A stretch of 64,000 nt of DNA from Lewinella sp. 4G2 (lineage in GTDB: Bacteria > Bacteroidota > Bacteroidia > Chitinophagales > Saprospiraceae). Numbering within the stretch: the stretch's first letter is position 1; every line of letters starts with the position of its first letter. Location: contig NZ_LVWJ02000014.1 in NCBI RefSeq assembly GCF_001625015.1, forward strand, positions 2,914,001-2,978,000. Direction: 5' to 3'. The notes under the pieces are model-generated. The model saw nothing but the letters and a program-made list of their open reading frames with translations, searched no databases and was not told the DNA's origin. Both the position numbers and the translations under genes were made by a program. Below, piece after piece: positions 378 to 60,462 of this stretch.

Positions 378-1479
378 CTCCGTCCAATGTTGAAAGGACA
401 TCATTGAATCTACGGGCGTAATCCGCCCAACTGAAGCGGGCGGACCAGGCTGGGCCGGCTGCCGCCCTTTCCTTTACATGCTGACCGCCGACTAGTACTT
501 CTTGCATTCGGTCCGTCAGCGCAGCGGTATCGTGGGTGGGGTAGTAGTAGGCCAATTCTCCGCCTACTTCTGGAAGGCTGCTGTTGTCCGGACAGATAAC
601 GTTGGTGCCGCACGAAAGGGCCTCAAGAATGGGAAAACCGAAACCTTCGTAGATGGAGGGATAGACCAACGCTTCCGCGTGGGAATAGGCTTGCAGTAAA
701 TGGTCCTTGCTGACGTACCCCGTTACGATGATATCGTTCCGGTAAGGGTGATCCTTTAAGGCTTGGTCCAAAAGCTCATTCTTCCATCCTTTGCCCCCTA
801 CCAAAACACACTGCACCTGCGGCAGCGCCCGCTTTCTTAATTGCGTGAATGCTTGGAGTAAGAGGACGAGATTCTTCCGTGGTTCCAGTGTGCCAACGTA
901 GAGGAAATAGGGTTTGGTGATTTTGTATTCGGAAAGGAAATCGCGGTCCGTGACCGGCTGGAAGGATTCATTGCGGCCCAGCAATATAGTCTGGATTTTA
1001 CCTTGGGTAAAAGGGTAGTATTGTTCTACATCCCGCTGCGTGTTGAGCGAATTACTGATGATTAGATCGGCCCGTTGAAGGATGCGGTTAAGAAACAGCC
1101 GCTGTAATTGTTGGCTGTGCCACCGGTGAAATTGGGGGAAAAGGATGGGCGTCAGGTCGTGGATCATGGTGATCCGCTTAACGCTTTTTGGTAAGTTGAA
1201 GGGGCCAAAGTGGGCCGGCTCAAATACTGCGTCCACTTTAAGCCGGCGCAGAATGCGGGGAATAATGAAGAATAAACGCGCCGAAGCGTAACCTATTGGA
1301 AGGCGAATATTCTTCACGGCTACCTGTCGGAGCGATAGGTTCGGGTCCACCTTCTCTCGAATAAGGATGTATTCGTGCTCGCCGGGATTGGCCGCCAATG
1401 CCCGAACCAACTCCCGTACGTAGACGTGGACACCGGCGTTCTGATTATCCAGCGGATCCGCAATGATCGCCACCCTCAT
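364..1479 (-). CDS. Family 4 glycosyltransferase (GT-B)
   Basis: A 371-residue retaining GT-B glycosyltransferase, probably transferring a sugar from a nucleotide sugar onto a growing surface glycan at the cytoplasmic membrane. Residues 1-15 form the first Rossmann strand. GTLEPRKN at 197-204 is the usual phosphate-binding turn of GT4 enzymes. E278 and E286 form the E-x7-E nucleotide-sugar motif in YEGFGFPILEAL. I place the start at ATG 1479, because the reading frame that extends further upstream overlaps the preceding gene and lacks family similarity; this start overlaps the upstream stop as ATGA. It is translationally coupled to the sulfotransferase-glycosyltransferase fusion, whose C-terminal half is a paralogue with the same EPRKN and YEGFG motifs. 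The acceptor and sugar cannot be read from sequence. Residues 217-222 are encoded by a copy of the 18-bp interspersed repeat. Confidence 0.92.
   Translation of the reverse strand: MRVAIIADPLDNQNAGVHVYVRELVRALAANPGEHEYILIREKVDPNLSLRQVAVKNIRLPIGYASARLFFIIPRILRRLKVDAVFEPAHFGPFNLPKSVKRITMIHDLTPILFPQFHRWHSQQLQRLFLNRILQRADLIISNSLNTQRDVEQYYPFTQGKIQTILLGRNESFQPVTDRDFLSEYKITKPYFLYVGTLEPRKNLVLLLQAFTQLRKRALPQVQCVLVGGKGWKNELLDQALKDHPYRNDIIVTGYVSKDHLLQAYSHAEALVYPSIYEGFGFPILEALSCGTNVICPDNSSLPEVGGELAYYYPTHDTAALTDRMQEVLVGGQHVKERAAAGPAWSARFSWADYARRFNDVLSTLDGATER
813..830 (-). repeat. 18-bp GGGCGCTGNCGCRGGTGC repeat, copy 1
   Basis: The minus strand reads GGGCGCTGCCGCAGGTGC, a full match to the consensus. It lies within the GT4 coding region, where it encodes the ALPQV linker before the VLVGG strand. 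Confidence 0.85.
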
Positions 1480-3482
1480 GATCGTGAATAAAGGATATCC
1501 TCGTAGGCACTGAGGGTGAGCAAGGCAGTTTTCAGCCAATTCATACGGTGACTTTGGCGACGGGCCTCCTGGCAAAGTTGATCATGGCGCTCTTGATCCG
1601 TGAACAGGGTTGAAATGGCCGTTTGGATATCGTCTACACTTTCGGCGTCCACGGCGATTCCTCCCTGGCCGGCCACCTCCGGCTGGGAACTATTATCCCC
1701 GTAAATGACGGGTGTGCCGCAGGCAAGCGCTTCCGCGATGGGGAGGCCGAAACCTTCGTAAAGACTGGCGTATAGGAGCCCACGTGCGTTTGCGTAGAGC
1801 GCGGGAAGGTGCTCATCTTCAATGAAACCAGTCAGAACAATGTCTGGTCGGTCCAGCGGCAGCCCGGCGAAGATCTCACTGGTTTTCCAACCCTTTTTTC
1901 CGCCGATTACTAAAAGGTCCTGCCTTTCCGGGAAGGCATCCTTATGGGCGATGAAAGCCTGAATCATCCGCCGCAGATTCTTCCGTGGCTCAATGGTGGA
2001 CAGGCAGAATAGGTAAGGTCCCTCCAGAATCCCGTACTTGCTGCGAATGCGGGTAAAGTCCTGCCGCTTTACCGCCGGGTTGAAGAGATTCACGTCGGCG
2101 GCTTCCAGGACGACGTGGCGGTGGTCGCTCGGTACTCTGTATTCTTTCTCAAGGTCCTCGTCGGTGGCGGAGGAAACACTCAGGAAGTGAGCGCCCGCCG
2201 CGAGGGCTGCCTGCATGCCCCGCTCGGAAAAAGCAACGTTGGCTTCCTCGTGGTACTGCGGAAATAGTCGGTGGGTCAGGTCGTGGACGGTGACCAAAGC
2301 TTTGGCATTACCCAGTGGTAATTCGTGAAAGTGTTGCGGTAGGGGAAAGTGGATCAGATCCGCCTCATCAACCAACTTTGTCAGATCCGACGTGCTGAGG
2401 CGACCGCCGACTTTGCGGGCTTGCATCTTAATGGCCGCCAGATATTTACGGTAGGGCCCGCGTTCGTACTGACGGGCGAGCGCGCCGTAAAGACTATTCG
2501 GGACGATGCTTTTCACCGCATTCTTGATGAGCAACAACAGCTTCTCGTAGCCCATCGTCCGGCGGTCCTGGAGGATCTCTTCGCGGCGGCTCAGGTTGCG
2601 GAAGACCGGATCCGCCCGCTGGGCATCCGTCTGGCGGACGAGGACGCCGTTGCCGTAGTACAGTGCGACTTTTAAATGCGGGAAGTAGGGCAAGAGTGGG
2701 GCCAATCCGTAGTCGAGACCCGTTAGGTACCGCTTTATCCCGTCGTTATCGTTGGTGAACATCTTGGACGCTTCCACGAGGACAGTCTTCTGTTCCGGCA
2801 CAGGGGGGAGCTCATCAACGTAACCCATTTTTTGGAGAGTCGGGCCGTGGACGGCCATCAGCAAGCGGTACAACTCCGGAGTGAGGTCCTCTTTGTAGCC
2901 GCCGACCTTCCCTTTGCGGAAGTGTTTGCGGTTGTTGGCGGGGTTGAACTTAGCACCCTTGCCACCCCCGTATGCGGGTTCACCCTCCCGCAAGCTTTTG
3001 AAGGTGGGGAGTTTGGACCGGTCCGGTTGGGGCAGGTCGATTACGGTACGCAGTTTTTCCACCTCGCGGATCGGGTCGGCGATCAAATCCTGAAAACGGA
3101 TGACGACGGCGGCGCGCTCCGTCCACTGCCGTACGTTCTCGCTCCAACCGCCAAAAAAGCTGCCGTTTTGGGCGAGGGTAGCCTCGATCAGGTTGTTGTA
3201 GAAATCCGTGCCCGGCGCCACGATGTCCTTACGGTGGTGGGCGATGGATACGAGGGAGTCCCGACCGTCACGGACGATATATACGGCGGGCCAATCCTGG
3301 GTTTCTTCGGGTAATTGACCGGGCAGGAGGTGGGTCTTAACCACCCGGTAGCTGGCGAAGTTGTCGTCCACCTTGCGGGTACTATCCAGGTGGAAAGTAC
3401 TGCTCTCGATGCCGTACACTTCGTGCAGGACGTTGCGAAAAAAGGTGTTCCCGGACCGAGGAAAAGAGGCAAGCCAGAGCAT
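1476..3482 (-). CDS. Sulfotransferase-glycosyltransferase (GT4) fusion protein
   Basis: A 668-residue bifunctional protein. Residues 1-222 are a PAPS-dependent sulfotransferase: FPRSGNT (7-13) is the 5'-phosphosulfate loop, RDGRDSLVS (71-79) the 3'-phosphate site, and FRKGKVGGYKEDLT (188-201) matches the RKGxxGDWK region of the Sulfotransfer_1 family. Residues from about 232 to 668 are a GT4 enzyme with EPRKN at 498-502 and an E-x7-E in YEGFGLPIAEAL starting at 575. The start ATG at 3482 puts the P-loop at residue 7, as normal for the family. A near-consensus -7 box (TACCTTCG on the minus strand) ends four bases before the ATG. The stop overlaps the next gene by ATGA. The fusion suggests that sugar addition and sulfation are coupled on the same acceptor; this is inference. 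Confidence 0.92.
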   Translation of the reverse strand: MLWLASFPRSGNTFFRNVLHEVYGIESSTFHLDSTRKVDDNFASYRVVKTHLLPGQLPEETQDWPAVYIVRDGRDSLVSIAHHRKDIVAPGTDFYNNLIEATLAQNGSFFGGWSENVRQWTERAAVVIRFQDLIADPIREVEKLRTVIDLPQPDRSKLPTFKSLREGEPAYGGGKGAKFNPANNRKHFRKGKVGGYKEDLTPELYRLLMAVHGPTLQKMGYVDELPPVPEQKTVLVEASKMFTNDNDGIKRYLTGLDYGLAPLLPYFPHLKVALYYGNGVLVRQTDAQRADPVFRNLSRREEILQDRRTMGYEKLLLLIKNAVKSIVPNSLYGALARQYERGPYRKYLAAIKMQARKVGGRLSTSDLTKLVDEADLIHFPLPQHFHELPLGNAKALVTVHDLTHRLFPQYHEEANVAFSERGMQAALAAGAHFLSVSSATDEDLEKEYRVPSDHRHVVLEAADVNLFNPAVKRQDFTRIRSKYGILEGPYLFCLSTIEPRKNLRRMIQAFIAHKDAFPERQDLLVIGGKKGWKTSEIFAGLPLDRPDIVLTGFIEDEHLPALYANARGLLYASLYEGFGLPIAEALACGTPVIYGDNSSQPEVAGQGGIAVDAESVDDIQTAISTLFTDQERHDQLCQEARRQSHRMNWLKTALLTLSAYEDILYSRS

Positions 3483-3486
3483 GGGG

Positions 3487-3494
3487 CGAAGGTA
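3487..3494 (-). promoter_or_regulatory. Near-consensus -7 box four bases upstream of the fusion gene start
   Basis: The minus strand reads TACCTTCG (consensus TAnnTTTG), followed by four bases and then the ATG at 3482. The spacing would put the transcript start at or next to the start codon. Confidence 0.4.
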
Positions 3495-3650: not shown

Positions 3651-5030
3651 ATGTTGTCGAAGCTCCTGCAGCAGATTCGCTCCCCCCGCCGCCGTAAGGA
3701 CGTTCAGCTCGAGCTGATCTCCCTGCACATTCCGAAGACGGCGGGCACGAGTTTTCGGCACATCCTGAAGAGCAAGTACGGGGAGCAGGAAGTTATCCGC
3801 CTGGACATCCCCGCGGGGAAGCGGCGGGTACGCATCAACGAGAAGCGATACCGGGAAACGACGATACCGTCCGGTACCCGCGTCGTCCACGGCCATTTTT
3901 ACCTGCCGGAACTCTACGCCAAATTCCCGGAGACGAAGGACTTACCCGTCATCACCTGGCTGCGGGATCCCGTTGAACGGGTGATCTCCAACTATTTCTA
4001 CCTACAGAAGATCCTGCGGCAACTGCTCGACGAGGAAGGGAAGGGCGTTAACCTCCTCAGTAAGATGCAGCGGTCGCTCATCGAGTACGCCCGTGCTGAG
4101 GTGAACCAAAATCGTCAGAGTAAATTCCTGGCCGGTAAGGATCTGGAAGACTTTGCTTTCGTGGCCATCCAGGAATATTACGGTGAGGAACTGGTCGAAC
4201 TGTCGAAAGTCCTGGGATGGTCCGGCGTAGAGGAAAAGAAAGTTAACGTTACGGGTAAGGACCGGCCTGAGGTATCCATCGAAATCAGAGAAGAAATCGC
4301 CCGCCTCAACGCTGCCGACGTCGCGCTCTACCAACGTGCATTGCACCTGCGGCAGCGCCGTATGAGTCGAAGACGGCTGGAAATTATCTCCATCCACGTG
4401 CCAAAAACCGCGGGCACTTCGTTCTACCACGCCCTACAAACGGCATATGGAAAAGCCGTGAGCCCATCCTACCGCCGGCGGGACGTGAAGCAGTTGGCCG
4501 AACGGCACGGGAGTTTTGCCAACGGGATCGACAAGAGTGATGTCGTTCTCCACGGCCACTTTTACTACGAGGAAATTAAGCGCCTGCACCAACCAAGCCG
4601 CGTAAAATTGATCACTTGGCTACGCGATCCTGTTGATCGGGTCATCTCCAACTACCGGTTTTTCCGGGCCGGCCTGAAGAATCCCGACCGGAACCCGGAG
4701 CAATTTGCGGCCAACCAGCACCGGTTGGAGGAATCGCTGCTCACCTACGCCGAGCGGCCGGAGAATCGTAACGTAATGAGCAAGTTTTTGACCGGTATCC
4801 AATTGGAGGAACTGGATTTCGTTGGCTTGCAGGAACACTACGCAACCGACCTCGCCAGGCTAGCAAAGGTGACCGGCCTGCCCCTCATAGCGGTGAAGAA
4901 AAACGTCAGCAATCAAGGCGACTGGGACTTCAGTTTCGACGACGAAGCAACGCGCGCCCAAATAGCCAAGTGGAACCGCGAAGACCTCGATCTCTACCAA
5001 CGCGCGCTCAAAATGCGGGCGGGTGAATAG
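3651..5030 (+). CDS. Tandem-domain sulfotransferase (two fused Sulfotransfer_2-like domains)
   Basis: A 459-residue protein made of two homologous carbohydrate-sulfotransferase domains. Domain 1 (about 22-235) has PKTAGTSF at 28-35, HGHFY at 80-84 and WLRDPVERVISNY at 103-115. Domain 2 (about 243-456) has PKTAGTSF at 251-258, HGHFY at 301-305 and WLRDPVDRVISNY at 323-335. Both keep the PAPS-binding P-loop and the RDPxxRxxSxY 3'-phosphate site, so both look active. Both end in a (D/A)LYQRAL helix. The junction codes LHLRQRRMSRRR and coincides with a copy of the 18-bp repeat, and domain 2 begins with an ATG, so this looks like two tandem genes fused by loss of the intervening stop. Normal family members have a single domain of about 230 residues. 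It probably sulfates two positions, or successive sugars, of the surface glycan. Confidence 0.92.
   Translation: MLSKLLQQIRSPRRRKDVQLELISLHIPKTAGTSFRHILKSKYGEQEVIRLDIPAGKRRVRINEKRYRETTIPSGTRVVHGHFYLPELYAKFPETKDLPVITWLRDPVERVISNYFYLQKILRQLLDEEGKGVNLLSKMQRSLIEYARAEVNQNRQSKFLAGKDLEDFAFVAIQEYYGEELVELSKVLGWSGVEEKKVNVTGKDRPEVSIEIREEIARLNAADVALYQRALHLRQRRMSRRRLEIISIHVPKTAGTSFYHALQTAYGKAVSPSYRRRDVKQLAERHGSFANGIDKSDVVLHGHFYYEEIKRLHQPSRVKLITWLRDPVDRVISNYRFFRAGLKNPDRNPEQFAANQHRLEESLLTYAERPENRNVMSKFLTGIQLEELDFVGLQEHYATDLARLAKVTGLPLIAVKKNVSNQGDWDFSFDDEATRAQIAKWNREDLDLYQRALKMRAGE
4343..4360 (-). repeat. 18-bp repeat, copy 2, at the junction of the tandem sulfotransferase
   Basis: The plus strand reads GCACCTGCGGCAGCGCCG, one edge mismatch from the reverse-complement consensus. 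It encodes residues 231-237, exactly between the two sulfotransferase domains. Confidence 0.8.
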
Positions 5031-5895: not shown

Positions 5896-6972
5896 ATGAG
5901 TAGCAGCAAAAAACCACGCGTGCTCTTCTACCGGGATCTGCGCAGCCTCAACTCCGGTTCCAACGGTGGCAACCTGAAAGTCCGGGATGCCTTTGACTAC
6001 TTCCGGGAGTCAGATCTTTGGAATCCCAAAGTGTGCTTTTCCCCCGAAACCAAGTGGTTCCCCGAACGGCCAAATCTTTGGACGGATCTGCGTGACGAGG
6101 GTATTCCCAGACTCGATCCGCAGCCCGGCGATCTCCTCTTCTTCTCCGGCCGTGATTGGTTGGCACTGCCCGCAGCCGAACGCCGCAAACCGCCCGTCCC
6201 CGTTCTGAATATCGCTCAACCCCGCCACGTTCGGCCCGAAGATGGTCGCCGCGAATTCCTCGCTCATCCCGCGTTGCGTATCGCAAAAAGTGCGCACGGA
6301 GCCAGTATCCTGAGCGAGCACGGCGTCAATGGTCCGCTCGTCACCATTCCCGATGCCATCGATTTAGGGGCGCTGCCGCAGGTGCCCAAGCAAAAGGATA
6401 TCGACATCCTCATACTCGGTTTGAAACAGCCAACCTTCGGGAAACAGGTTTACGAAGGATTATCCGCCTGGAATGAGGAAATGGGTTTAGGCCTCCGGCT
6501 CCACCTCCAACTCCCTCCTAAACTCCCTACTCGGAATGATTTCCTTGAACTACTGGCCCGCGCCAAAGTGGTGGCCTGCATCCCGCTGGAATTGGAACGC
6601 GGCGGCGAAGGATTCTACCTCCCCGCCCTCGAGGCGATGGCGCTGCAAACCCTGGTTGTCTGTCCCCATTCAGTGGGGAACCTCGGCCACTGTATTGACG
6701 GGGTGAACTGCATCGTGCCGCCCTTCACGCCGGAAGGGTTGATACGAGGGGTAAAACAAATGTGGGAAGCGGATTCGACGTGGCAGCAGGCCCTGCGCAC
6801 CGCCGGCCGGGAGACGGCGGAAGCCCACGATCGACCCGCCGAAAAGCGAGCATTGTTGGAATTAGCGGACCAGGCTTACGATATGTGGTCAAGCTATCCT
6901 TTCTCGCTACCTTTGCCCACGGACGAGACCACGCCGCAAAGACGTAAGTGGTGGCAATTTTTCAACCGTTAG
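5896..6972 (+). CDS. GT-B glycosyltransferase, family 1/4-like
   Basis: A 358-residue glycosyltransferase-like protein. The N-terminal half begins with the strand KPRVLFYRDL (6-15) followed by a glycine-rich loop. The C-terminal Rossmann domain starts near 168 (DIDILILGLKQ) and holds E238 and E246 of the E-x7-E motif (GEGFYLPALEAMA), followed by a conserved VVCPHSVGN segment near 254-262. The linker between the two domains, around residues 158-163 (GALPQV), is encoded by a copy of the 18-bp repeat. It lies three bases after the preceding sulfotransferase stop. The family call is supported by the fold motifs; donor and acceptor are unknown. Confidence 0.8.
   Translation: MSSSKKPRVLFYRDLRSLNSGSNGGNLKVRDAFDYFRESDLWNPKVCFSPETKWFPERPNLWTDLRDEGIPRLDPQPGDLLFFSGRDWLALPAAERRKPPVPVLNIAQPRHVRPEDGRREFLAHPALRIAKSAHGASILSEHGVNGPLVTIPDAIDLGALPQVPKQKDIDILILGLKQPTFGKQVYEGLSAWNEEMGLGLRLHLQLPPKLPTRNDFLELLARAKVVACIPLELERGGEGFYLPALEAMALQTLVVCPHSVGNLGHCIDGVNCIVPPFTPEGLIRGVKQMWEADSTWQQALRTAGRETAEAHDRPAEKRALLELADQAYDMWSSYPFSLPLPTDETTPQRRKWWQFFNR
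6368..6385 (+). repeat. 18-bp repeat, copy 3
   Basis: GGGCGCTGCCGCAGGTGC, a full match, lying in the interdomain linker of the GT-B glycosyltransferase and encoding ALPQV. Confidence 0.85.
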
Positions 6973-10246: not shown

Positions 10247-11170
10247 ATGCGTACCTGGCTCTGGAAAATGATCGTCACCATTGGTGTCATCCTCGCCGTT
10301 CTCTACGGTGTAGAGCGCTACGCCATCGCCCACGATAATAGCGGCTTCGGAAAACGCGTCGCTTGGTTTGGCGCTAACGCAGGTGCGGTGAAAGGACTGG
10401 TATTCGGACCGTCCCTCCTTGTACAGGCCATCGATCCAACTGGATTGGATGCCCCAACGGCCAGCCTGGCCCTCAGCGCAAGCGCTCCGGACGTTGATAC
10501 CAAGCTACTGACCAAGGCCCTCAAACGCAGCAACCCCGACTTTATCCTTTTCGACCTGACCGTCGGTACGCTGGACCGGCGAAAACCCGTTAAATACTAC
10601 GAGCAACGGAAACTCTACCAGTACATGGGCATCCCCTTCGAAGGAATGCAACTCAAAGATCGGTTCTTCACCAGCTACCCACTCTACCGCTATTTCTACC
10701 CTGACCCTCCGGAAAAGAACTACAACGAACGGGGATTCCCCACTTCCGTGAAAGAAAGCGAAGACTACTTCCGCCTCCTGGATTACGACCCAGAAAAGAT
10801 CGCCGCGGAAAAGCGTTTGATGCGTAAAATGCGCAAGCAAGGCCTCTACAGTGACGCCGATAATGCCCTCAACCAACGCGACCTGAAAATGGTGATTGAA
10901 CAGTGCCGGGAACGGGACATCAAATTCATCTTCCTGGCCCCTCCAAAGTATCGTCTCTTCAACGAAAATGTAGAGCCCCTACACCCGGGCCGCCGCCAGG
11001 CTTTTCTAGATGAAGTCGTCGATAACGAAACCGTTTTCTTCTGGGACTACGCCACCTTCGGCCAGGATGAGCCGGAGTACTTCCACAACATCAACCATAC
11101 CAGCCCGCTGGGTGGCCAGGCCTTTACGGCGGAGTTGAATGAGCGCTTGAATGCGTTTTTGGCGGAGTAG
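10247..11170 (+). CDS. DltD/AlgX-like partner of the O-acyltransferase
   Basis: A 307-residue protein with one N-terminal membrane segment (about 5-22) followed by a periplasmic domain. It lies four bases after the MBOAT gene, the position usually taken by an SGNH-hydrolase-like acetyl transferase or DltD homologue. The C-terminal FHNINHTSPLGGQAFTAELN resembles the end of DltD/AlgJ-type proteins, where a conserved Asp/His precedes the last helix. A canonical GDS nucleophile motif is not obvious; FGPSLLVQ near residue 58 occupies the expected place. I infer that it completes O-acylation of the exported polysaccharide. Confidence in the exact family is moderate. Confidence 0.65.
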   Translation: MRTWLWKMIVTIGVILAVLYGVERYAIAHDNSGFGKRVAWFGANAGAVKGLVFGPSLLVQAIDPTGLDAPTASLALSASAPDVDTKLLTKALKRSNPDFILFDLTVGTLDRRKPVKYYEQRKLYQYMGIPFEGMQLKDRFFTSYPLYRYFYPDPPEKNYNERGFPTSVKESEDYFRLLDYDPEKIAAEKRLMRKMRKQGLYSDADNALNQRDLKMVIEQCRERDIKFIFLAPPKYRLFNENVEPLHPGRRQAFLDEVVDNETVFFWDYATFGQDEPEYFHNINHTSPLGGQAFTAELNERLNAFLAE

Positions 11171-14281: not shown

Positions 14282-15373
14282 TCAGGCAGTGATCTCCGCG
14301 TAAAATTCCAAGTACTGGTCAATCGACTCCCGCAATGGGAAGCGTTTTAGTGGGGTCTCATCCCATTCGCTCCGGTACGCTCTAGTCAAACATTGTACCA
14401 GTGCCGGTACGCTCATCTCCTGCATTGTCAGGTGCGGACCGCTTACGGTTTCCACCAGTGCTCCTCGCCCGGAAGAAATGATGGGAATCCCCGCCGCTGC
14501 CGTCTCTGCGGCGACGAAGCAAAAGCCTTCGCTGTAAGAGGTGATCAGGACGCAGGAGGAAGTGTTGACCGCCGACCGTAATTCGGCCTCCGGTAATTCG
14601 TGGAGCAACTCCACGTATTCACCAATACCCTCGTGGTCAATCATCGCGAGGATGTTACGGTACATCCCTGCCGGTCCTTTCGGGATGATCAGTCGCAACT
14701 TCGATTTAGGATACGTTTTGCGGAACTCAGCGGCGGCGGGAATGATCAGGTCCAGTCCTTTACTGACGCCCAGCCTTCCGAAATAGGTGTAGGTGAATAG
14801 GTCCGGAGCTTGAAGCTCACTCCCTTCGTACCGCGTGTAGTCCAGGCCGTTGTAGATCCGTCTTACGCGGTCACTTGCCACTCCACCCCGCACCAGCGCC
14901 AGCGCCGTAAAATTGGAAACGGCTACGTAGTTATCGAAGGGTAGGGCGAGGATAAAGCGCTCGTAAGCGCGGTAGACCCAGGCCGCAGTGGAAGACAGAA
15001 AGGGTAACTTGTTCCAGAGCGCGCCCCAGTACTCGTGAAAGGTGATGACGGTCTTCGTGCCCCGAAATTTGGCGCCCACCCAGGCGGGGAAAGCAGCGTT
15101 GTAGGTGGTGGTGTGCACGAGGTCCGCCCAACCGGCCCATTTGATTACGGCGGGCAGCGCCAGTGCGGAAAAAAGGAATCGGTTGCGGCAGTTGATGCGC
15201 TCGACGATAACTCCGTTCAGTGCTTCTTCAGCGGGGAGATCCGGCCGGTAGCGGGTGGTGATAACGCGGATTTCGTGGCCATTTTGAGCAAGTGATTCGC
15301 AGAGCGTAGTGAAGAGCGTTTCGGCGCCGCCAATGTAGGGATGGTAGTGCTCGAGGACAAAGAGGAGCTTCAT
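14282..15373 (-). CDS. Family 4 glycosyltransferase
   Basis: A 363-residue GT4 enzyme. The N-terminus MKLLFVLEHYHPYIGGAE is the classical GT4 opening with the GGAE loop. FTYFGRLGVSKGLDLII is the start of the C-terminal Rossmann domain, and YSEGFCFVAAETAAAG carries the E-x7-E pair. It is the last gene of a four-gene minus-strand operon and overlaps the DUF2304 gene by four bases. It presumably adds one sugar of the surface glycan or of a lipid-linked precursor. Its stop lies in a CTGCCTCAGGCAG palindrome shared with the 3' flank of the convergent lipoprotein gene. Confidence 0.92.
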   Translation of the reverse strand: MKLLFVLEHYHPYIGGAETLFTTLCESLAQNGHEIRVITTRYRPDLPAEEALNGVIVERINCRNRFLFSALALPAVIKWAGWADLVHTTTYNAAFPAWVGAKFRGTKTVITFHEYWGALWNKLPFLSSTAAWVYRAYERFILALPFDNYVAVSNFTALALVRGGVASDRVRRIYNGLDYTRYEGSELQAPDLFTYTYFGRLGVSKGLDLIIPAAAEFRKTYPKSKLRLIIPKGPAGMYRNILAMIDHEGIGEYVELLHELPEAELRSAVNTSSCVLITSYSEGFCFVAAETAAAGIPIISSGRGALVETVSGPHLTMQEMSVPALVQCLTRAYRSEWDETPLKRFPLRESIDQYLEFYAEITA

Positions 15374-22238: not shown

Positions 22239-22256
22239 GGGCGCTGCCGCAGGTGC
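22239..22256 (+). repeat. 18-bp repeat, copy 4 (intergenic)
   Basis: GGGCGCTGCCGCAGGTGC, a full match, just upstream of the argB start and outside any gene. Confidence 0.85.
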
Positions 22257-29581: not shown

Positions 29582-29618
29582 CAGTAGGTCGGTAAAACGT
29601 GGTGAAGCAATAAGTGCT

Positions 29619-29636
29619 GGGCGCTGTCGCAGGTGC
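29619..29636 (+). repeat. 18-bp repeat, copy 6 (intergenic)
   Basis: GGGCGCTGTCGCAGGTGC, a full match with T at the variable position, between the engB start and its probable promoter, so it would lie in the 5' leader. Confidence 0.85.
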
Positions 29637-35975: not shown

Positions 35976-36733
35976 TTGTAATAAATTTCGCGGCCCTCAC
36001 CGATGTAGATGGGGATGACAATGCCAACGCGTGCACCGAGCGCAACGTCCGTTCGAACCTCATCCGGCAGTGGACCGCCAGTAGGAATATCGAAGGCCCG
36101 AAGCGGCTTGGTGAAGCCGGCCAGTAGATCGGCCCCGGCATAAAAGTTGATGCGTTTGTTTTCGCTCAGGATTTGATAACCCACGAATTGGTAGATCGCC
36201 GGGCCACCGGTTAGCCGGTCGTAACCCGCCAGCCGCTCTGGCTGAAGCGGCTCCACACCCTGAATGGCATCCTGCTGCACCCGGATCCGACTGAAGAAGT
36301 AGCCGACGCTCGTCCGCACGTTGATGCCGGAACGCTTGCTCGCCCCGAGCCCGAACGTATACCCGACCATCGGCCCGACGAACAGTTGCCGCTGCCGTAA
36401 TTGGATGTCGGCCGGGTCGCGCATGTTGCCGATGATGAAGCCTTGATCCGTCCGCAGATCAGCGACCACATCTTCGTTCACCTGGTTCCCAAACCCATAG
36501 TTGGCGCGGACACCGAATTCCCAATTGGTCTTTTTACCGAGGTAACTCACGCCGCCGTCGATGGCAAATCCATTACCAAATCGATCCGCCAGGTCGCCGG
36601 CAGATTGAAAAACACCGTACCCGGCCGAGATGAGCACCCCGCGGTCCTGGTTTTTCGCCCCCGCCAACCCCTGGGCGCTGGCGCTGGTGCAAAGGAGGAA
36701 GGCAAGTAAGAAAAGGAGTTGGCTTTTAGGCAT
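35972..36733 (-). CDS. Outer membrane beta-barrel protein
   Basis: A 253-residue protein with a signal peptide (about 1-20, ending SASAQG) and alternating amphipathic strands typical of a PorT/OMP_b-brl-like small barrel, such as NWEFGVRANYGFGNQ and FVGPMVGYTFGLG. It lies directly upstream of waaA with a four-base overlap. An exact TAnnTTTG box ends four bases before its ATG. Function unknown; a link to LPS synthesis is suggested only by the operon. Confidence 0.8.
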   Translation of the reverse strand: MPKSQLLFLLAFLLCTSASAQGLAGAKNQDRGVLISAGYGVFQSAGDLADRFGNGFAIDGGVSYLGKKTNWEFGVRANYGFGNQVNEDVVADLRTDQGFIIGNMRDPADIQLRQRQLFVGPMVGYTFGLGASKRSGINVRTSVGYFFSRIRVQQDAIQGVEPLQPERLAGYDRLTGGPAIYQFVGYQILSENKRINFYAGADLLAGFTKPLRAFDIPTGGPLPDEVRTDVALGARVGIVIPIYIGEGREIYYK

Positions 36734-38641: not shown

Positions 38642-38713
38642 GAGCTGCGGTCCTACTTCGCGGTGGTCACAAAAGAGTGGTAGGATAATCTGTCTTCAGG
38701 AGCCTCCTCGGCC

Positions 38714-40428: not shown

Positions 40429-42162
40429 TCACCGCCCGTAACTAACTCCACTCTCCTGGTAGCCGATGCGTTGGGCAACGGCTTTCAACGTATCCCCCCG
40501 TGGGTAATCGAGCGGTTCGGTGTAGACCAGCCACGGGCCGGGAATGCCTCCCTTCGGCGTCAACTGGTAGGCAATTTGCGCGCCCTCCGTCTTGCTGTAC
40601 AATTCAAACCTTCCGAGGCTATCCCGCCGCGCCTGCGGGCGACCGGTAGTGGGCATCACCTCCAGCCCATCCCAGAACCGCTGGACGAGTTCGATTTCCG
40701 GTACCGCCCCCAAATCACCTATCTCCGCCAGCCAGGCATCCGTGGCCGACCTTAGTTCCGCAAGCTTCCCGGCGTAAGCTGGATCGTCCGCCAGATTTTG
40801 TAGTTCGTAAGGGTCATTCTCCGTATCAAAAAGTTCTTCCGTCGGTTTGGTCTTGCGGAACCATTGCGCCTGTGCGTCGGTCAGGGTACACGCATCGCGA
40901 CCCATTAGTAGAGACTGCATCGCCGCCATCTGTTCCCGGTATACGACGGGCAGGTAGTAGCCCCGCTCCGGGTAGTAGTTGCGCAAATATTTATACCGTT
41001 TATCCCGGCAGGCTCGGATCCGGTCGTAAAAGCCATCTAGCCGGTCCGAAGCTGCGAAAACATAGTCCCGCGGCGGGGCGGCGGCGGGGCCGAGGATGGC
41101 CTGGCCTTGCAGGTAATCCGGCAGGTCAATTCCGGTTAGACTAAACACTGTCGGTGCGAGATCGACGAAACTGAAAAGGCTGGAATCTATCGTACCCGCC
41201 TTCCGCTCATCGGGCCACTTTACGATCATCGGTACGCGAATCCCACTATCGTACAGCAGTCGTTTTTGCCGGGGAAGCGGCCCGCCGTGGTCGGAATAGA
41301 AGAAGATGATGGTGTTGCCCATCAGCCCGTCGGCCTCGAGTTGGTCCAGGAGCAGGCCCACCTGCTGGTCCATGATCTCGATGTTAGAGTAGACCCGGGC
41401 GGCGTCTTTCCGTGTGGCGGCATCGTCCACGAGGTAGGGTGGGAGGGGGACGTCGGCGGGGTCCACGGTAAGCGGCGGGCGGTCCGCATCCTCGGTCCAG
41501 ACGTCATCCCAGCGGTGGATTTTTGCCGTCGGCTCTTCGAAGCCTTCCACGAAACGGAGCTGCCCTTTCCCCGTGCGCCACACTTGGCTTTCGTGGGTGA
41601 TCTCCATGTTGAAGATTGAAAAAAAAGGCATCTCCGGGTCCGGCCGGTGGCGCCAGTGGGCGCGGGGTCCGGTTTCGTCCCAGGCCGTTTTCGGGGCGGC
41701 GAATTGGTAGTCGTGCTTCTGGTTATTCGTGGTGAAATACCCGTGCTCCCGCATGATTTGGCTCATCATCTTTACCTCGGGTGGCGGGAGGGCACCGTAA
41801 GGCCCGGGCAGTCCGAGCGCCTCCATATCCTCTTGCCGGCTGGTCGTCCGCATGTTGTGGCCGCCAATGCTGATCGGATACATCCCGGTCGCGATGCAGT
41901 TTCGGCTCGGGGCACATACACCGGCCACGCTGAAGGTATTTGGGAACCGCACGCCCGCTGCGGCTAGCCGGTCCAGGTTCGGCGTCCGCGCGGTACTGTC
42001 GCCAAAGGCAGCGATCATCGGGCTAATGTCCTCACACGTCAGCCAGAGGATATTCATCCGGTCTTTACCCGGCACCTGCGGCAGCGCCTCCGCATCATCA
42101 CGCTGGGCGCTGTCGCAGGTGCAAAGCAAGAGGGCAAGCAGAAAAAGGATAACGCGGTGCAT
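40429..42162 (-). CDS. Sulfatase (heparan-N-sulfatase-like), probable lipoprotein
   Basis: A 577-residue type I sulfatase that hydrolyses sulfate esters or sulfamates. The formylglycine motif is CAPSR (83-87), preceded by the family opening MNILWLTCEDISPMI with the metal-binding Asp. The start at ATG 42162 gives a hydrophobic signal with a likely lipobox (LALLLC, Cys14). The linker after it (residues 14-31) is encoded by two inverted copies of the 18-bp repeat. It lies downstream of a T9SS protein, TonB receptor and small membrane protein on the same strand, suggesting uptake and desulfation of an external sulfated compound. The locus to the left makes sulfated glycans, so the sulfatase may also act on the cell's own polymer. 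Confidence 0.9.
   Translation of the reverse strand: MHRVILFLLALLLCTCDSAQRDDAEALPQVPGKDRMNILWLTCEDISPMIAAFGDSTARTPNLDRLAAAGVRFPNTFSVAGVCAPSRNCIATGMYPISIGGHNMRTTSRQEDMEALGLPGPYGALPPPEVKMMSQIMREHGYFTTNNQKHDYQFAAPKTAWDETGPRAHWRHRPDPEMPFFSIFNMEITHESQVWRTGKGQLRFVEGFEEPTAKIHRWDDVWTEDADRPPLTVDPADVPLPPYLVDDAATRKDAARVYSNIEIMDQQVGLLLDQLEADGLMGNTIIFFYSDHGGPLPRQKRLLYDSGIRVPMIVKWPDERKAGTIDSSLFSFVDLAPTVFSLTGIDLPDYLQGQAILGPAAAPPRDYVFAASDRLDGFYDRIRACRDKRYKYLRNYYPERGYYLPVVYREQMAAMQSLLMGRDACTLTDAQAQWFRKTKPTEELFDTENDPYELQNLADDPAYAGKLAELRSATDAWLAEIGDLGAVPEIELVQRFWDGLEVMPTTGRPQARRDSLGRFELYSKTEGAQIAYQLTPKGGIPGPWLVYTEPLDYPRGDTLKAVAQRIGYQESGVSYGR
42072..42089 (-). repeat. 18-bp repeat, copy 9
   Basis: The minus strand reads AGGCGCTGCCGCAGGTGC, one edge mismatch, encoding EALPQVP in the sulfatase linker. 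Confidence 0.8.
42105..42122 (+). repeat. 18-bp repeat, copy 10 (inverted to copy 9)
   Basis: GGGCGCTGTCGCAGGTGC, a full match, 15 bases from copy 9 in the opposite orientation; the two could form a 17-bp stem. On the coding strand it encodes CTCDSAQ near the lipobox. Confidence 0.85.
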
Positions 42163-48121: not shown

Positions 48122-48139
48122 GCACCTGCGGCAGCGCCC
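48122..48139 (-). repeat. 18-bp repeat, copy 11 (intergenic)
   Basis: The minus strand reads GGGCGCTGCCGCAGGTGC, a full match, in the 88-bp gap between the TlpA-like and lspA genes. Confidence 0.85.
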
Positions 48140-50197: not shown

Positions 50198-51403
50198 TTG
50201 AGCTACCTCCTCTATTTCTGTTCCGCAAGCATACTGGGTTACTGCCTTTGGCAACTCAATAATTGGCGCGTTTGGGTTCGGCTTACCAAGTTTCGGGTGC
50301 CGCCGCCGGGCCCCGTGCATTCGCTTGCGCTCATCATTCCGTTCCGCAACGAGGCCAATAATCTTTCCCGCCTCTTCGCGTCCATCCTGCAACAGGATTT
50401 CCCCCGCGAGCAACTCGAAATCATCTTCGTCGACGATAGTTCTACCGATAAGGGGAGGTCCATGGTCGAAACATTTATACGCGAAACAGCGCACGCCGAT
50501 TTGGGCGCTGCCGCGGGTGCCAAGAAATGGGAGGGGATCAAGCCTCAGACAACCGGATTAAACGTCCGCCTACTGGACCTCACCGATCACCTTAGGACCC
50601 GGAAAACGGTGGCCCACAAAAAGGAAGCGCTCACCTACGCCATCAACTCCACGGAGCAAGAGATCATCCTGACGACGGACGCCGACTGCACGCTACCACC
50701 AACCTTACTCCGAACGGTAGCTGCCACCTTTCGGGATGGCGTCCAAGTAGTCTCCGGGCCGGTAGCCAATGGCCCACTAAAGAGCTTCTGCGATACCTTC
50801 CAGGCGTTGGACCTCGCTTCCTACCAATTCTTAACCGCCGTCCAGATAGAAGTCGGGAAGCCAGTATTGGCTAACGGCGCCTGCTTTGCCTTCCGCCGTT
50901 CCGCCTTCCACGATGTTAACGGCTACGTGGGGGTCGACCACCTACCTTCAGGAGACGACGTATTGCTCCTGCACAAATTTCGGGATGCCTTCCCCGGAAA
51001 TGCATTCCGTTGGCTCAAAGCTGGCCCGGTTACGCTGACGGCCCCCGTAAGAAACTGGAAAGCACTCTGGAACCAACGGCTCCGCTGGGCGGGGAAGGCG
51101 GGGAACTACCAGGCGAAGGAATTAGAGCGGGCACAGAATTTAGCGGTTATGGCCGCTTTGTCGGTTTTGTTATTGTTGGTAGTCATCATACTCACCGATT
51201 ATACGGTGGTGATGCTCTGGCTGTGGCTGGTTAAAATTATTATCGACGGTATCTGTTTATGGGCGTACCAAAGGCACTACCGGCAACCGTTTCCCATCAT
51301 TGGCTATCTGAAGACGGCTTTGATCCACCCATTTTTTCTGGTTGGTATTGCCGTGGCCCACCTCCGCGGTAAGAAACCCAGGTGGAAGGGTAGGGCTACG
51401 TAG
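50198..51403 (+). CDS. Membrane-anchored family 2 glycosyltransferase
   Basis: A 401-residue GT-A enzyme from TTG 50198. After a short N-terminal hydrophobic segment, LIIPFRNEANN, IIFVDDSSTD, LTTDADCTL (DAD at 161-163) and QRLRWAG (293-299, the QxxRW motif) are all present, as in processive or membrane-linked GT2 enzymes. Two or three C-terminal membrane helices follow. It is outside the main glycan cluster. The GAAAGA linker at 103-108 is encoded by a copy of the 18-bp repeat. Confidence 0.88.
   Translation: MSYLLYFCSASILGYCLWQLNNWRVWVRLTKFRVPPPGPVHSLALIIPFRNEANNLSRLFASILQQDFPREQLEIIFVDDSSTDKGRSMVETFIRETAHADLGAAAGAKKWEGIKPQTTGLNVRLLDLTDHLRTRKTVAHKKEALTYAINSTEQEIILTTDADCTLPPTLLRTVAATFRDGVQVVSGPVANGPLKSFCDTFQALDLASYQFLTAVQIEVGKPVLANGACFAFRRSAFHDVNGYVGVDHLPSGDDVLLLHKFRDAFPGNAFRWLKAGPVTLTAPVRNWKALWNQRLRWAGKAGNYQAKELERAQNLAVMAALSVLLLLVVIILTDYTVVMLWLWLVKIIIDGICLWAYQRHYRQPFPIIGYLKTALIHPFFLVGIAVAHLRGKKPRWKGRAT
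50503..50520 (+). repeat. 18-bp repeat, copy 12
   Basis: GGGCGCTGCCGCGGGTGC, matching the consensus with G at the R position, in the GT2 gene and encoding GAAAGA. Confidence 0.85.
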
Positions 51404-57300: not shown

Positions 57301-59067
57301 ACGGATCGTCAACTGATTGCCGGCGGGGCGGATAGCGATCTTCTTTTCTTTGTTGAATTCTACCGGTAAAACGGCGTCGACTCGAATATCACCCGTTACC
57401 ATGTTCATCACGGCGTTGGGTTTGGGAGTTCGGGAGACTACCCGGAGTTTGTCGTAATCCACCTCTTCGCGGCTGGCCTCCACGTAGAGGGAAAGCTTGC
57501 GCTTGAGGTTGATGATGTTGGTCTGGGGATTGTACAACAGGAAGCCGGCCGTCTGCAGGTCGTAGAGCAGCGGTTTGATGTCCGTTGCGGTGAAGTCTTT
57601 GCGGAAGAACTTCGCTAGGTCGTCAGCGTGCAGATCATCCATACCGCCATTTTGGTTTTGGCGGTAGGAGTAAATGCGTTCCAGTGGGTTAGAGCTAGCG
57701 ATGTCCTGAGTGTACTCATACTCCCGCTGGCTGTAGTAATCCGAGCTTTCAAAAACAACGTCCGGTTTTTCCTGGAAGGATACGGTTGGCTTCCCGATCA
57801 CGGCGCTGTCACCGTCCAGGTGAATGTCCAGGTAGTCACTGAAGATGGCCATTGCGTTTTTGGAATGGTAGAACGGCGCCCGGTCGGCACTCGACTTAGA
57901 TCGCCGCAGACCCACGATACGATCCTCGAGATCGACGTACATCGTTACACTGGGGTGGAAGAGGCTGTCCTGTCCCACCTTCACGGTCGTGCGGACACCC
58001 TCACCACCGACGCTTTTGCCCTGGCGGACGACGAAACGCCGAGCCTCGCCCTGCACGGACCGGTCGGTCGCGCTACCCTGTAAGCGGAGGCGGACGTAAG
58101 CTTCCCTACCTTCTTCACCGATGGCGTAAACGGTGTTGCCCTTCAATTCAAAGTTGCCGAACAGGGTAACGTTTTTGCCGATGTTCTTGATCTCCACGTA
58201 CCCATCGTCGGAGAGAAACTGGGGAAAGTCCCCTTCGGGCCGTACGCCGCCCACCTGGTTCTTATCGTTGAAACTGCCCATGAGGATTCGGTCGCCGAAG
58301 TACTCCGGGTACTGGAACTGGGCGGAGTCACTCTTGTAGATCATCCGGCCCGCGTCGAGTTCGTACTGAACGAGGATGACGAAGATGTCGGGGGAGAGGC
58401 CCACCCGGCGCCAATCGGTCCTTCCGCCCTTCCCGCTGGCGGCGTTCATGGCCAGATCAACCAGGAGGTTGGTCTCTTTAATTTTGATCGTATCCTTTGG
58501 GCTGATGGCGATCAGTTCCCGGATCGTATCCACCTGAATTTTCAAGCGGTTGTCTTCGGCCAGGAAGGTGGGTTTACCGCCGATGACGCGCCACCCCGTA
58601 TCTTCCTTACCCGGCTTGAGCCATCCCTTTTCCAGAAAGACGGCGGCGTTCTGCAGAGTTTTGTTCAACTGATCGACGCGGGCATCCCCCGAACTGGCCA
58701 CCTGCGACAGCGCCGCATGAAAACTTTCGAAAAGCGGATTAGGTGCATCTACCGCACCCGTCAGAAACTCCTGAGCGGCGAGGTAGGGAATGAAGCCGCC
58801 GGTAGCCGTGACCCGATTCTGAGAAAGCAAAACGGCCGTGGCGGCGATCTGCTTCTGTTGTTCTTCGGTGAAGCCACCGCCAAAGAAAATGCCGTTGAAA
58901 TTGGAGTAACTTTCTTTGGCCGCCTTGTTGCCAGAGCCGGTCATGAAGGCTTCCAGGGCTTCGTCGAAGGCCGCTGGTTCACTGGTGGCGTCAAAATCGG
59001 CGAGCCCCTGTCCGGTAGCCTGGGCGGCGGTGAACAGGAGTGTCAGTATCAGAAAATGCAAACGCAT
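54382..59067 (-). CDS. Very large exported protein of unknown function (1561 residues)
   Basis: A 1561-residue protein with a signal peptide (about 1-19). It begins with a mainly helical region to about residue 250, followed by a very long beta-rich region with recurring short strands. A segment starting LTFTGESATYDINTNVLGVE, then IYPGDGRVEVEGGAKVREL and ATVNLMGRKEYTASG, resembles OstA/LptA-like strand repeats, but I do not claim homology. A proline/glutamate-rich linker (AAPEPEEEEDTPPPS) separates it from a C-terminal part of roughly 220 residues. Length and composition suggest an outer-membrane or surface protein. It lies upstream of nothing obviously related. Copy 13 of the 18-bp repeat is near its start. 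Confidence 0.8.
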   Translation of the reverse strand: MRLHFLILTLLFTAAQATGQGLADFDATSEPAAFDEALEAFMTGSGNKAAKESYSNFNGIFFGGGFTEEQQKQIAATAVLLSQNRVTATGGFIPYLAAQEFLTGAVDAPNPLFESFHAALSQVASSGDARVDQLNKTLQNAAVFLEKGWLKPGKEDTGWRVIGGKPTFLAEDNRLKIQVDTIRELIAISPKDTIKIKETNLLVDLAMNAASGKGGRTDWRRVGLSPDIFVILVQYELDAGRMIYKSDSAQFQYPEYFGDRILMGSFNDKNQVGGVRPEGDFPQFLSDDGYVEIKNIGKNVTLFGNFELKGNTVYAIGEEGREAYVRLRLQGSATDRSVQGEARRFVVRQGKSVGGEGVRTTVKVGQDSLFHPSVTMYVDLEDRIVGLRRSKSSADRAPFYHSKNAMAIFSDYLDIHLDGDSAVIGKPTVSFQEKPDVVFESSDYYSQREYEYTQDIASSNPLERIYSYRQNQNGGMDDLHADDLAKFFRKDFTATDIKPLLYDLQTAGFLLYNPQTNIINLKRKLSLYVEASREEVDYDKLRVVSRTPKPNAVMNMVTGDIRVDAVLPVEFNKEKKIAIRPAGNQLTIRNNRDLDFSGEVYAGGIVMSGKGFHFKYDPYYIELDSVRYVDLFLPEGDDLEAKGNRRSAGSRIEHVTGYLLIDAPKNKSGTENIPYFPSLQSKEISYIYYDGADSTAAYDRDEFYFELQPFSLNGTDSLLASDLALGGKLNSGGIFPDIEETLTIQEDGSLGFVTETPEGGQSTYEDRGNYEGELVLTNKGLKGTGKLSYLEANIESDNLDFRLDRTTASSNSFALEESAKDGRVVPQVAGTEVNVEFIPYGDSLVVEAAEGAAFDMFKAGDHQLEGTLVLTPEALKANGTLDWDAASMTSKDMDFTLFGAKADTSNVSIKSLQAGDQLALTTTNVQSSFDFEKQSASFRNNSTDLSTDLPYTQFKTSINEFDWDMATGNITFKAEPGKDRFTSTHPDQDELTFTGESATYDINTNVLGVEGVPFVTAADARIYPGDGRVEVEGGAKVRELTNARIVADTLNEYHVIKRATVNLMGRKEYTASGFYEYNVGPHRQEVEFQNIIGTRVGKGKKNDKATATRAEGTVEESTSFYVDNKTKFFGTINLDAGSKTLLFDGYAKIDAEKLPGAQWFTVQSEGDKKDLTLEVREPKDRDGLPLFTGLYLSKPNRGIYPSMVQTLDFRKDHAILDANGLMNYDEENDVFLFGDSLRIFDETQTTGNLMRFDNANGKIDGSGELGLGGRLEFININAYGTIKMDMPTGQRVAAQVQIEEKPAAPEPEEEEDTPPPSMFLLEEETVTAKDTTQEKKKVELTINAPVAPSRPEVLVEAMMAIDLIFPDKLVNMMANDVLSGTFASPGLNLVTDREFYSTGLETLFLEGKERAGAIASLDAGVLEVPRKINEHTLFFPKMKLKWSDDYQSFVSTEKLNGLASIRGNTVSKMVEVYTEIKMPTGGDDRLYIYLKTPSELYYFFGFQAGVLNVVSNNTQFMDELEGMKPKDLVKKIKGKDGGTYEILPVSPATADTFLRRVKDAF
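58699..58714 (-). repeat. 18-bp repeat, copy 13 (16-bp core)
   Basis: The minus strand reads GGCGCTGTCGCAGGTG, the core of the consensus with mismatches only at the two outer bases. It encodes ALSQV in the 1561-residue protein. Confidence 0.7.
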
Positions 59068-59961: not shown

Positions 59962-60435
59962 ATGAAGGTGCAGGTCTATTACGTCGGGAAAACCAGTGAA
60001 AAATACCTCCGGGAAGGGGAGGCGATCTACCAGAAAAGACTGCGCCATTACTTGCCCATCAGCTTCGATATTTTGCCCGATATCCGCAATGCGGGCAAGT
60101 TGTCTTCCGAGGCGCTAAAGGAAAAAGAGGGCGAGCTGATCCTCAGCAAAGTCAACAATGAAGACGGCTTGATCCTGCTCGACGAAGGCGGTAAACGCTT
60201 CACCAGCGTCAAGTTTTCGGCCTGGATCGACCGTCAATTACAGATGCCCTACCGCCGGCTGATCTTCGTGGTGGGTGGCGCTTTCGGCTTTTCTGACGCC
60301 GTCTACCAACGCGCCAACGGCAAACTTTCCCTGAGCGACATGACCTTCAGCCACCAGATGATTCGCCTGTTTTTCGCGGAGCAGTTGTACCGGGGGATGT
60401 CGATTCTGCGGGGGGAGAAGTACCATAATGAGTGA
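59962..60435 (+). CDS. rlmH: 23S rRNA (pseudouridine1915-N3)-methyltransferase
   Basis: A 157-residue SPOUT methyltransferase acting on helix 69 of the 23S rRNA in assembled ribosomes. LILLDEGGKRFTSVKFSAWI, LIFVVGGAFGFSDAVY (the trefoil-knot SAM site) and the C-terminal LFFAEQLYRGMSILRGEKYH match RlmH from end to end. Length is the family's usual length. Confidence 0.96.
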   Translation: MKVQVYYVGKTSEKYLREGEAIYQKRLRHYLPISFDILPDIRNAGKLSSEALKEKEGELILSKVNNEDGLILLDEGGKRFTSVKFSAWIDRQLQMPYRRLIFVVGGAFGFSDAVYQRANGKLSLSDMTFSHQMIRLFFAEQLYRGMSILRGEKYHNE

Positions 60436-60444
60436 GGCGTTTTT

Positions 60445-60462
60445 GGGCGCTGACGCGGGTGC
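60445..60462 (+). repeat. 18-bp repeat, copy 14 (intergenic)
   Basis: GGGCGCTGACGCGGGTGC, matching the consensus with A and G at the variable positions, ten bases after the rlmH stop. Confidence 0.85.

Follow-up and report, generated by a model that had tools for sequence, protein, structure and literature searches.

Within a 64,000-nucleotide stretch of Lewinella sp. 4G2 (contig NZ_LVWJ02000014.1, positions 2,914,001 to 2,978,000; hereafter the window, and G000 for the genome that contains it), a short sequence recurs in many dispersed copies. We report here that this repeat is the core of a long, asymmetric motif which is strongly over-represented in a single genus, and that its copies are spaced according to their orientation: same-orientation copies mutually exclude each other over about 3 kb, whereas opposite-orientation copies are independent. 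In our judgment the chances are about even that the motif is a strand-specific tag of self DNA, which would act on transferred DNA and spread in the manner of DNA uptake sequences.

A long asymmetric motif, confined to one genus and varying within it

The first-pass annotation of the window, made from the letters alone, had described a near-palindromic 18-bp repeat in 14 copies. Every one of these is present, the one placed at 58699 lying at 58698, and the mismatches to the 18-bp consensus are as reported (nine full matches, four off by one base and one off by two), although the 14 divide into seven plus and seven minus copies rather than eight and six. Three further copies had been overlooked, at 10369 and 14890 (two mismatches each) and at 36673 (one mismatch); with a position matrix the window yields 17 sites, of which 9 are plus and 8 minus. 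When up to three mismatches are allowed, the window holds 20 matches, as compared with 0.8 expected from 100 shuffles, among which the maximum was 4. In G000 as a whole (5,213,657 bases in 21 contigs) the 17-bp core GGCGCTGNCGCRGGTGC has 888 exact copies, 445 forward and 443 reverse, and the reversed pattern has none on either strand. The genome-wide count, which had been proposed as a check, is thus far from the chance level, and the claim that the density cannot be accidental holds at both scales: the window shuffles and the reversed control rule out chance and base composition. No strand bias was seen genome-wide or in the sampled sequences (56:55), and there was no regional bias. The equal strand counts rule out a replication-polar signal.

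Anatomy and spacing were determined on 209 matrix sites from two contiguous blocks of G000 of 398,648 and 464,000 bases (863 kb together). The full motif spans about 40 bp and reads a-t-t-G GGCGCTGcCGCaGGTGC nRRGnAAGGGG, beyond which runs a weaker tract of purines; this extension first became visible with 100 sites. The description as near-palindromic therefore has to be given up, since the motif is asymmetric, with a purine-rich extension on one side, and its palindromic part is confined to CTGCCGCAG in the commonest variant. The motif carries 35.8 bits of information, to which the 17-bp core contributes 27.3, the downstream flank 6.7 and the upstream flank 1.7, a total that is inflated somewhat by the matrix cut-off of >14 bits, though in our judgment not by 20 bits. 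Locating the sites would need 13.0 bits (log2 of the possible positions per site). Such an excess over what ordinary binding sites need is what would be expected of a driven tag, that is, one whose copies are maintained by biased transfer.

To describe its distribution, 398 genomes of the family, from 112 genera, were searched for the core with free middle bases, GGCGCNNNCGCRGGTGC. In the genus of the window, 18 of the 21 genomes have between 26 and 1202 copies, as against 5, 2 and 18 in the remaining three; in the 377 genomes from the 111 remaining genera the count is 0-4 each. The motif is abundant in only one of the 112 genera searched, and the counts of 0-4 per genome rule out a G000-type core in the others. 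Within the genus the motif exists as species dialects, for example gGCGCGGtCGCrGGTGCaagg in G150 and GGCGcGGcCGCAGGTGCAaag.aagg in G156. In the six genomes that were sampled over at least 120 kb and in which the core could serve as a seed, dialects occur at 240-350 sites per Mb, with 1-5 sites in reversed controls; in some small dialect samples the controls gave 2-3 sites against 5-8. G006 and three fragmentary genomes yielded no motif.

Congeners poor in the core (G157, G159 and G167; 120 kb sampled in each) have other over-represented motifs of their own. The G157 motif, agCatTGCTACTTTGnTAGYC, has 41 sites (reversed control, 1); that of G159, cggCGGnGcGCAGGTa, has 23 (control, 0), or 36 with another seed (control, 2); and that of G167, CggagCGCaGGagc, has 33 (control, 1). 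The motif of a further congener, G160, was poorly resolved (reversed control, 4-8). A genome-wide count, made among the three core-poor congeners for G157 only, gave 851 exact copies of the word TGCTACTTTGNNAG with a control of 1. When reversed, the G157 matrix aligns in register with the G000 matrix, and none of 300 column shuffles did as well; its fit to the other GC-rich dialects is weaker (0-5 of 300 shuffles as good). Outside the genus there is no enrichment of the G157 motif, 132 genomes having 0-2 copies apiece. A similar word occurs five times in one locus, L123, in a set of 80 Bacteroidota loci and others; such a word was rejected as a signal in the wider set, where 140 loci contain 250 occurrences and their reversed sequence 322. 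Eight genomes of six other genera, sampled at 20-80 kb each, yielded no comparable repeated words, apart from some 12-mers present four times in G018. A phage-borne tag was also rejected (at least 120 viral stretches, with one match each in the 80 listed).

Orientation-specific spacing

Sites of either orientation are far more evenly spaced than random ones. In the 863 kb of G000, the coefficient of variation (CV) of the spacing is 0.48 for plus sites (mean 7.8 kb) and 0.45 for minus sites (mean 8.7 kb), whereas random spacing gives about 0.98 and none of 2000 simulations was as low as observed. Same-orientation pairs are absent below 1.5 kb (0 vs 37.4 expected) and scarce up to 3 kb (1 vs 12.4 at 1.5-2 kb and 5 vs 24.8 at 2-3 kb; 6 vs 74.6 below 3 kb in total); there are 18 vs 24.8 at 3-4 kb and near-normal numbers beyond. 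Opposite pairs show no such effect. Below 3 kb there are 83 against 75.4 expected (40 plus-minus and 43 minus-plus, each vs 37.7), and even below 1.5 kb neither kind is depleted (27 plus-minus and 19 minus-plus, each vs 18.9). Of 207 pairs of neighboring sites, 159 alternate in orientation, against an expectation of 103.8 (0 of 10,000 shuffles).

The same pattern was found in other species. For G152 and G157 we used the first 100 places listed, of 1202 and 851 respectively, with one lone G152 site dropped. Among pairs closer than 2 kb, G152 has 2 in the same orientation (22.0 expected) and 26 in opposite orientation (24.1 expected); G157, whose motif is quite different, has 2 (18.8 expected) and 23 (19.1 expected). 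Eight congeners pooled, in 20-kb stretches, give 15 same-orientation pairs against 47.7 expected and 74 opposite pairs against 61.6.

To ask which rules of site turnover could generate such spacing, we simulated four of them; the parameters, which we set ourselves, were 98 sites per 400 kb, a range of either 3 or 6 kb and one of two strengths. An orientation-blind rule of one site per fragment, which is the usual drive assumed for uptake sequences, excludes opposite pairs as well and gives an alternation of about 0.5. When import is polar and the allele can be carried by either orientation, one kind of opposite pair is depleted. In contrast, end-scanning, in which the first same-orientation site from the entering end counts, leaves opposite pairs near random with an alternation of 0.73-0.81 and a CV of 0.39-0.47, and a strand-specific rule of one site per single-stranded molecule gives 0.67-0.77 and 0.39-0.55. 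The observed values are an alternation of 0.77 and a CV of 0.45-0.48. In this toy setting, only rules under which plus and minus sites serve separate molecules or entry directions fit the spacing. Comparing the strength of two close same-orientation sites did not separate end-scanning from symmetric strand reading: the 5' site was the stronger in 29 of 43 cases below 5 kb (p 0.03), in 18 of 27 below 4 kb and in 6 of 10 below 3 kb, and in 22 of 42 in the eight congeners.

Placement and origin of the copies

The 17 core sites of the window lie as follows.

813..829, minus: exact; inside a glycosyltransferase gene, 364-1575 (minus)
4343..4359, minus: exact; antisense in a sulfotransferase-like gene, 3651-5030 (plus)
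6369..6385, plus: exact; inside a glycosyltransferase gene, 5896-6972 (plus)
10370..10386, plus: one mismatch; overlooked at first
14890..14906, minus: one mismatch; inside a glycosyltransferase gene, 14282-15373 (minus); overlooked at first
22240..22256, plus: exact; adjoins the start of an amino-acid-kinase gene, 21463-22233 (minus), between divergent open reading frames (ORFs)
25598..25614, minus: exact; 3' end of an AAA ATPase gene, 25519-26748 (minus), about 65 bp ahead of the start of the next ORF, 24285-25532 (minus)
29620..29636, plus: exact; 5' edge of an ORF, 28964-29638 (minus)
34615..34631, plus: one mismatch; 5' edge of an ORF, 33793-34659 (minus)
35150..35166, minus: exact; inside kdtA, 34740-35975 (minus), where it codes ALTQV
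36674..36690, plus: one mismatch (T at the R position); overlooked at first
42072..42088, minus: exact; first arm of an inverted pair 17 bp apart
42106..42122, plus: exact; other arm of the inverted pair with 42072..42088
48122..48138, minus: exact; 10 bp past the stop of a thioredoxin-like gene, 48149-49501 (minus)
50504..50520, plus: exact; inside a glycosyltransferase-2 gene, 50198-51403 (plus)
58698..58714, minus: one mismatch; inside a 1561-codon ORF, 54382-59067 (minus)
60446..60462, plus: exact; 10 bp past the stop of an ORF, 59962-60435 (plus)

In the 863 kb of G000, where genes were called by a simple codon-scored procedure of our own, 143 of the 209 sites (68%) are inside genes, 64 in the same orientation as the gene and 79 opposite. 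Over all fetched DNA, sense and antisense sites number 93 and 92, and noncoding sequence holds 28% of the sites in 10% of the length. Five of the six reading frames are used in G000 and the sixth accounts for 5 of 185 sites in all fetched DNA; together with the near-equality of sense and antisense, this bears out the earlier proposal that selection acts on the DNA and not on the protein. In the G000 blocks, sites between genes are enriched 2.8-fold where the genes diverge and 2.1-fold where they run in tandem, but not where they converge. An excess of sites is seen 50-200 bp ahead of gene starts, but also past stops and antisense in the 5' ends of genes, in both orientations, which rules out a promoter element. 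Pairs of inverted sites within 100 bp are at chance level (6 among 256 sites vs about 5.3 expected) and sites are not in excess between convergent genes; terminator pairs were accordingly rejected, as was an RNA-level element, given that sense equals antisense and that the window has no Rfam match.

Antisense sites cluster 50-100 bp inside gene starts (29 of the 209, or 32 with three sense ones, a 4.9-fold enrichment). Of 37 antisense sites within 130 bp of a start, most resemble signal peptides when judged by eye and several do not; the complement of the motif codes there for the last part of the hydrophobic segment and the cleavage site, as in ...lllalflCTCVSAq, with 24 of the 37 in one frame. 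As an observation in its own right, the antisense motif frequently serves to encode a signal peptide at the same time, with a hydrophobic stretch and CTCxSA or APAAA before Q. Judged again by eye, many proteins that are probably exported thus have in common a cleavage region dictated by the DNA motif. The peptide CTCDSAQ, which had been cited earlier as one of the readings in different frames, is explained by this. Separately, the AT skew changes sign at oriented G000 sites, from -0.07 to +0.06, and the effect fades over about 2 kb; it probably stems from the tendency of sites to lie close to the 5' ends of genes and in divergent intergenic regions.

How copies arise was examined at 55 coding sites with homologues, out of 175 well inside ORFs and 256 sites in all fetched DNA. 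In kdtA, the columns that hold the site (ALTQV) align without gaps in ten homologues, of which two (G152 and G116) have the site and the others do not; in the nearest homologue by sequence, that of G150, a site lies elsewhere within the gene. Overall, 276 of 368 comparisons (75%) are ungapped at the site, as compared with 91% in random windows of the same alignments, the 368 being non-independent in that several genomes contribute to one site. In 70 of the 276 the relative also has the site, with at most one mismatch. Five or more residues are absent at the site in 13 of the 368 (3.5%, vs 0.6% in random windows). Gaps are raised both ways, in the subject (19.3 vs 5.4%) and in the query (9.5 vs 3.3%), which argues that the sites lie in variable parts of proteins and have not been inserted. 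These alignments show that copies arise mainly by substitution. The idea of an in-frame insertion of six codons has lost its footing: aligning homologues, as the first-pass annotation had recommended, showed that the codons are mostly not missing from relatives, which are mostly of equal length, and kdtA is a case of plain substitution. A mobile element, also proposed there, fares no better at the sites compared.

A proposed tag on transferred DNA, known systems and alternatives

We propose that a machine specific to the genus would read one strand of DNA molecules a few kb long, or would read them from one end, and that a single motif on the strand read would suffice for the molecule to be accepted, kept or recombined. 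The most likely setting would be DNA uptake and recombination between relatives, by way of single strands and not of a type IV pilus. Tagged DNA would be passed on more often, and tags would build up by biased transfer wherever protein or regulatory constraint permits. A second tag nearby on the same strand would bring no benefit and would decay, and tags on the opposite strand would form a separate set. Should the reading protein shift its specificity, the genome would follow, giving rise to dialects. In its over-specification, dialects, permissive placement and substitution origin, the motif works like a driven tag. The earlier suggestion of an uptake- or segregation-type signal was a fair guess, unlike the mobile element that stood among the same possibilities.

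Several observations weigh against this proposal. Taken singly, G159, G167 and G160 show only weak exclusion. The G157 matrix does not significantly match those of G159 and G167 (39 and 14 of 300 shuffles as good), and the match of each of the latter to the G000 matrix is modest (3 of 300). Comparisons that lack residues at the site, rare as they are, are commoner than in the controls and leave room for a few insertions. In Haemophilus influenzae, the orientation of uptake sequences is without effect on uptake (PMC1939737), and since orientation is irrelevant there, the key feature of the present motif is not a known feature of uptake sequences. ComEC is present in the genome of the window and DprA in 20 of the 21 genomes of the genus, the sole exception being 55% complete; the two also pass the cut-off in 10 and 10 of 14 control genomes and say little, because they are widespread in bacteria. 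Secretin models (PF00263) have no match in any of the 21 genomes, though very divergent parts might escape such models. The pilus ATPase model (PF00437) has matches in 20 of the 21 genomes, 11 of which narrowly pass its 24.9-bit cut-off; none of the matches extends over as many as 90 of the 370 positions, the best are in frames of about 950 amino acids or longer, and by our reading they represent other, UvrA-like P-loop ATPases. With no secretin and only partial PF00437 matches, pilus-mediated uptake of the Neisseria or Haemophilus type is unlikely, unless its parts are too divergent for the models. No candidate receptor for the motif was found.

The closest parallels are the uptake sequences known from Pasteurellaceae and Neisseriaceae (PMC7811141, PMC1939737), in which DNA is taken up by type IV pili (PMC7965970). 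The DNA uptake sequences (DUS) of Neisseriaceae occur in up to thousands of copies, are over-represented taxon by taxon and form species dialects, one of them with an inserted base (PMC3630211). The present motif shares with them a strong over-representation in one taxon, dialects among related species and an origin by substitution. It differs in being long, whereas DUS are short (a 12-mer in PMC12061091) and are bound by the type IV minor pilin ComP, in belonging to a genus without a secretin match or a convincing pilus ATPase, and in an orientation-specific exclusion that is not described for DUS in the excerpts compared. The uptake signal sequences (USS) of Pasteurellaceae consist of a core with AT tracts and are fairly evenly spaced (PMC1939737, PMC7811141); the core with additional tracts, here of purines, and the relative evenness of spacing are likenesses, whereas the mean spacing is about 1 kb for USS (PMC7811141) and about 4 kb here. 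Exclusion by orientation sets our motif apart from USS as well, although the expectation from H. influenzae is drawn from the effect on uptake and not from counts of spacing. The share of sites within ORFs, 65% in H. influenzae and 35% in N. gonorrhoeae (PMC1939737), is 68% here. Among Bacteroidota, the flavobacterium Riemerella columbina favors its own DNA, yet a k-mer count returned only A/T-rich words and no confirmed uptake sequence (PMC7965970). A literature search brought up nothing that joins an uptake signal sequence with Bacteroidota and no such motif described for the group, as judged from titles and the opening lines of abstracts. Because pilus machinery and orientation-blind placement fail, we do not file the motif as a DUS or USS, though it has several of their defining features.

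Other repeats resemble the motif in part. Chi sites are 5-8 bp long and asymmetric, being read from one side. Our motif is likewise asymmetric and occurs about once per 4-5 kb; unlike Chi it is not short, has no strand bias and shows same-orientation exclusion where E. coli Chi clusters. The highly iterated palindrome HIP1 of cyanobacteria is short, perfectly palindromic, hugely over-represented, located in genes and restricted to a taxon; the present motif has the last three properties but is long and asymmetric. Repetitive extragenic palindromic (REP) sequences and bacterial interspersed mosaic elements (BIME), as well as the palindromic elements of Rickettsia, are dispersed short inserted repeats, those of Rickettsia being inside genes. 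The dispersal of short repeats is common to all of them, whereas the asymmetric logo and sites that arise mainly by in-place substitution, mostly with no insertion relative to relatives, distinguish our motif from REP/BIME, from REP with their RAYT proteins and from the Rickettsia elements.

We would only tentatively go so far as to call this a new self-recognition system, with a long high-information motif of which one strand is read, recurring about every 8 kb along either strand without regard to the other, in species dialects and without detectable type IV pili or secretins. If it were one, the sequence-specific handling of single-stranded or end-scanned DNA would be the gate for genetic exchange in this lineage, and some 1000 dialect-specific tags in a genus where no pilus machine is detected would point to an independent evolution of self-tagging, with a different machine. 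The exclusion by orientation is easy to compute for any genome and separates strand-reading from strand-blind systems.

Part of the evidence could also be read as a recombination signal of the Chi type, at which a helicase-nuclease that has entered at a break and reads one strand would be switched by the first correctly oriented site. Each orientation would then serve breaks processed from one side, coverage would be even per orientation and extra same-strand sites would be useless. Such a signal requires no uptake machine, the end-scanning toy model reproduces the spacing, and the density is similar (91 sites per 400 kb in E. coli; 209 per 863 kb in G000). Yet Chi of E. coli K-12, scored identically in those 400 kb, shows the reverse: same-orientation pairs are in excess (12 vs 5.7 below 500 bp, 28 vs 11.5 at 0.5-1.5 kb), the CV is 1.1-1.4 and the strand ratio 62:29, which is clustering and bias, not exclusion. 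Moreover, the motif holds 36 bits over about 40 bp, far beyond the length of Chi; a rapid change of dialect at 850-1200 sites would be hard if each copy were needed for repair; and a short-motif search for a RecB/AddA-type helicase in the sampled DNA, which covers a minor part of the genome, yielded two unassigned frames and no clear candidate. We regard a Chi-like role as rather unlikely. Polar chromosome-organizing sites, where an asymmetric binding protein would halt loop-extruding or translocating machines from one side as a bacterial analogue of polar boundaries, would account for the asymmetry, the orientation-specific spacing and the lack of strand or transcription bias (445:443, and 93:92 relative to genes). 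They are nevertheless quite unlikely, since 36 bits far exceeds the 13 needed and a genus-wide turnover of dialects would call for a coordinated change of the protein and about 1000 sites without drive; we know of no bacterial precedent at such density.

The tags might instead be signals by which a gene transfer agent, or a particle of that kind, packages or exports DNA; loading would proceed directionally from each tag, and tags would spread by transfer of the packaged DNA. Such signals would be directional over a kb range and would supply both drive and dialects. The polar-transfer toy model, however, depletes one kind of opposite pair below 1.5 kb, where G000 has 27 plus-minus and 19 minus-plus pairs against 18.9 of each, and we hold this origin to be very unlikely. 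As for a dispersed mobile palindrome, either REP-like or inserting in frame, whose close same-orientation copies would be lost by deletion between direct repeats, the many dispersed copies, some inverted pairs and the gappiness of sites relative to random windows (75 vs 91% ungapped; at least five residues absent in 3.5 vs 0.6%) speak for it. Against it, gaps are raised on both sides of the alignments, only 13 of 368 comparisons lack five or more residues, kdtA has homologous codons without an indel, and the motif is mostly in genes and not palindromic. Deletion between short direct repeats would also be too rare to clear 3 kb, and the 8-bp Chi repeats are not cleared. This explanation strikes us as highly improbable, and a strand-specific tag on transferred DNA remains the reading we prefer.

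Some minor features were observed along the way. Other short repeated words, such as GACTATAGACT, TACAGAACTA and GACTAAAAGACTAAAA-like ones, occur in a species-dependent manner in loci of G000, G158, G167 and G153, and the word GCAGGTTGCA is found 22 times in 20 kb of the G156 locus L057, alongside ordinary tags. A 6405-codon open frame, cut by the edge of the stretch, spans nearly all 20 kb of the G000 locus L046 (C14:2100001-2120000), which has no site on either strand. The window itself contains three small tandem arrays, at 36806-36850, 38710-38792 and 38894-38941, with units of 7/14, 33 and 21 bp, respectively.

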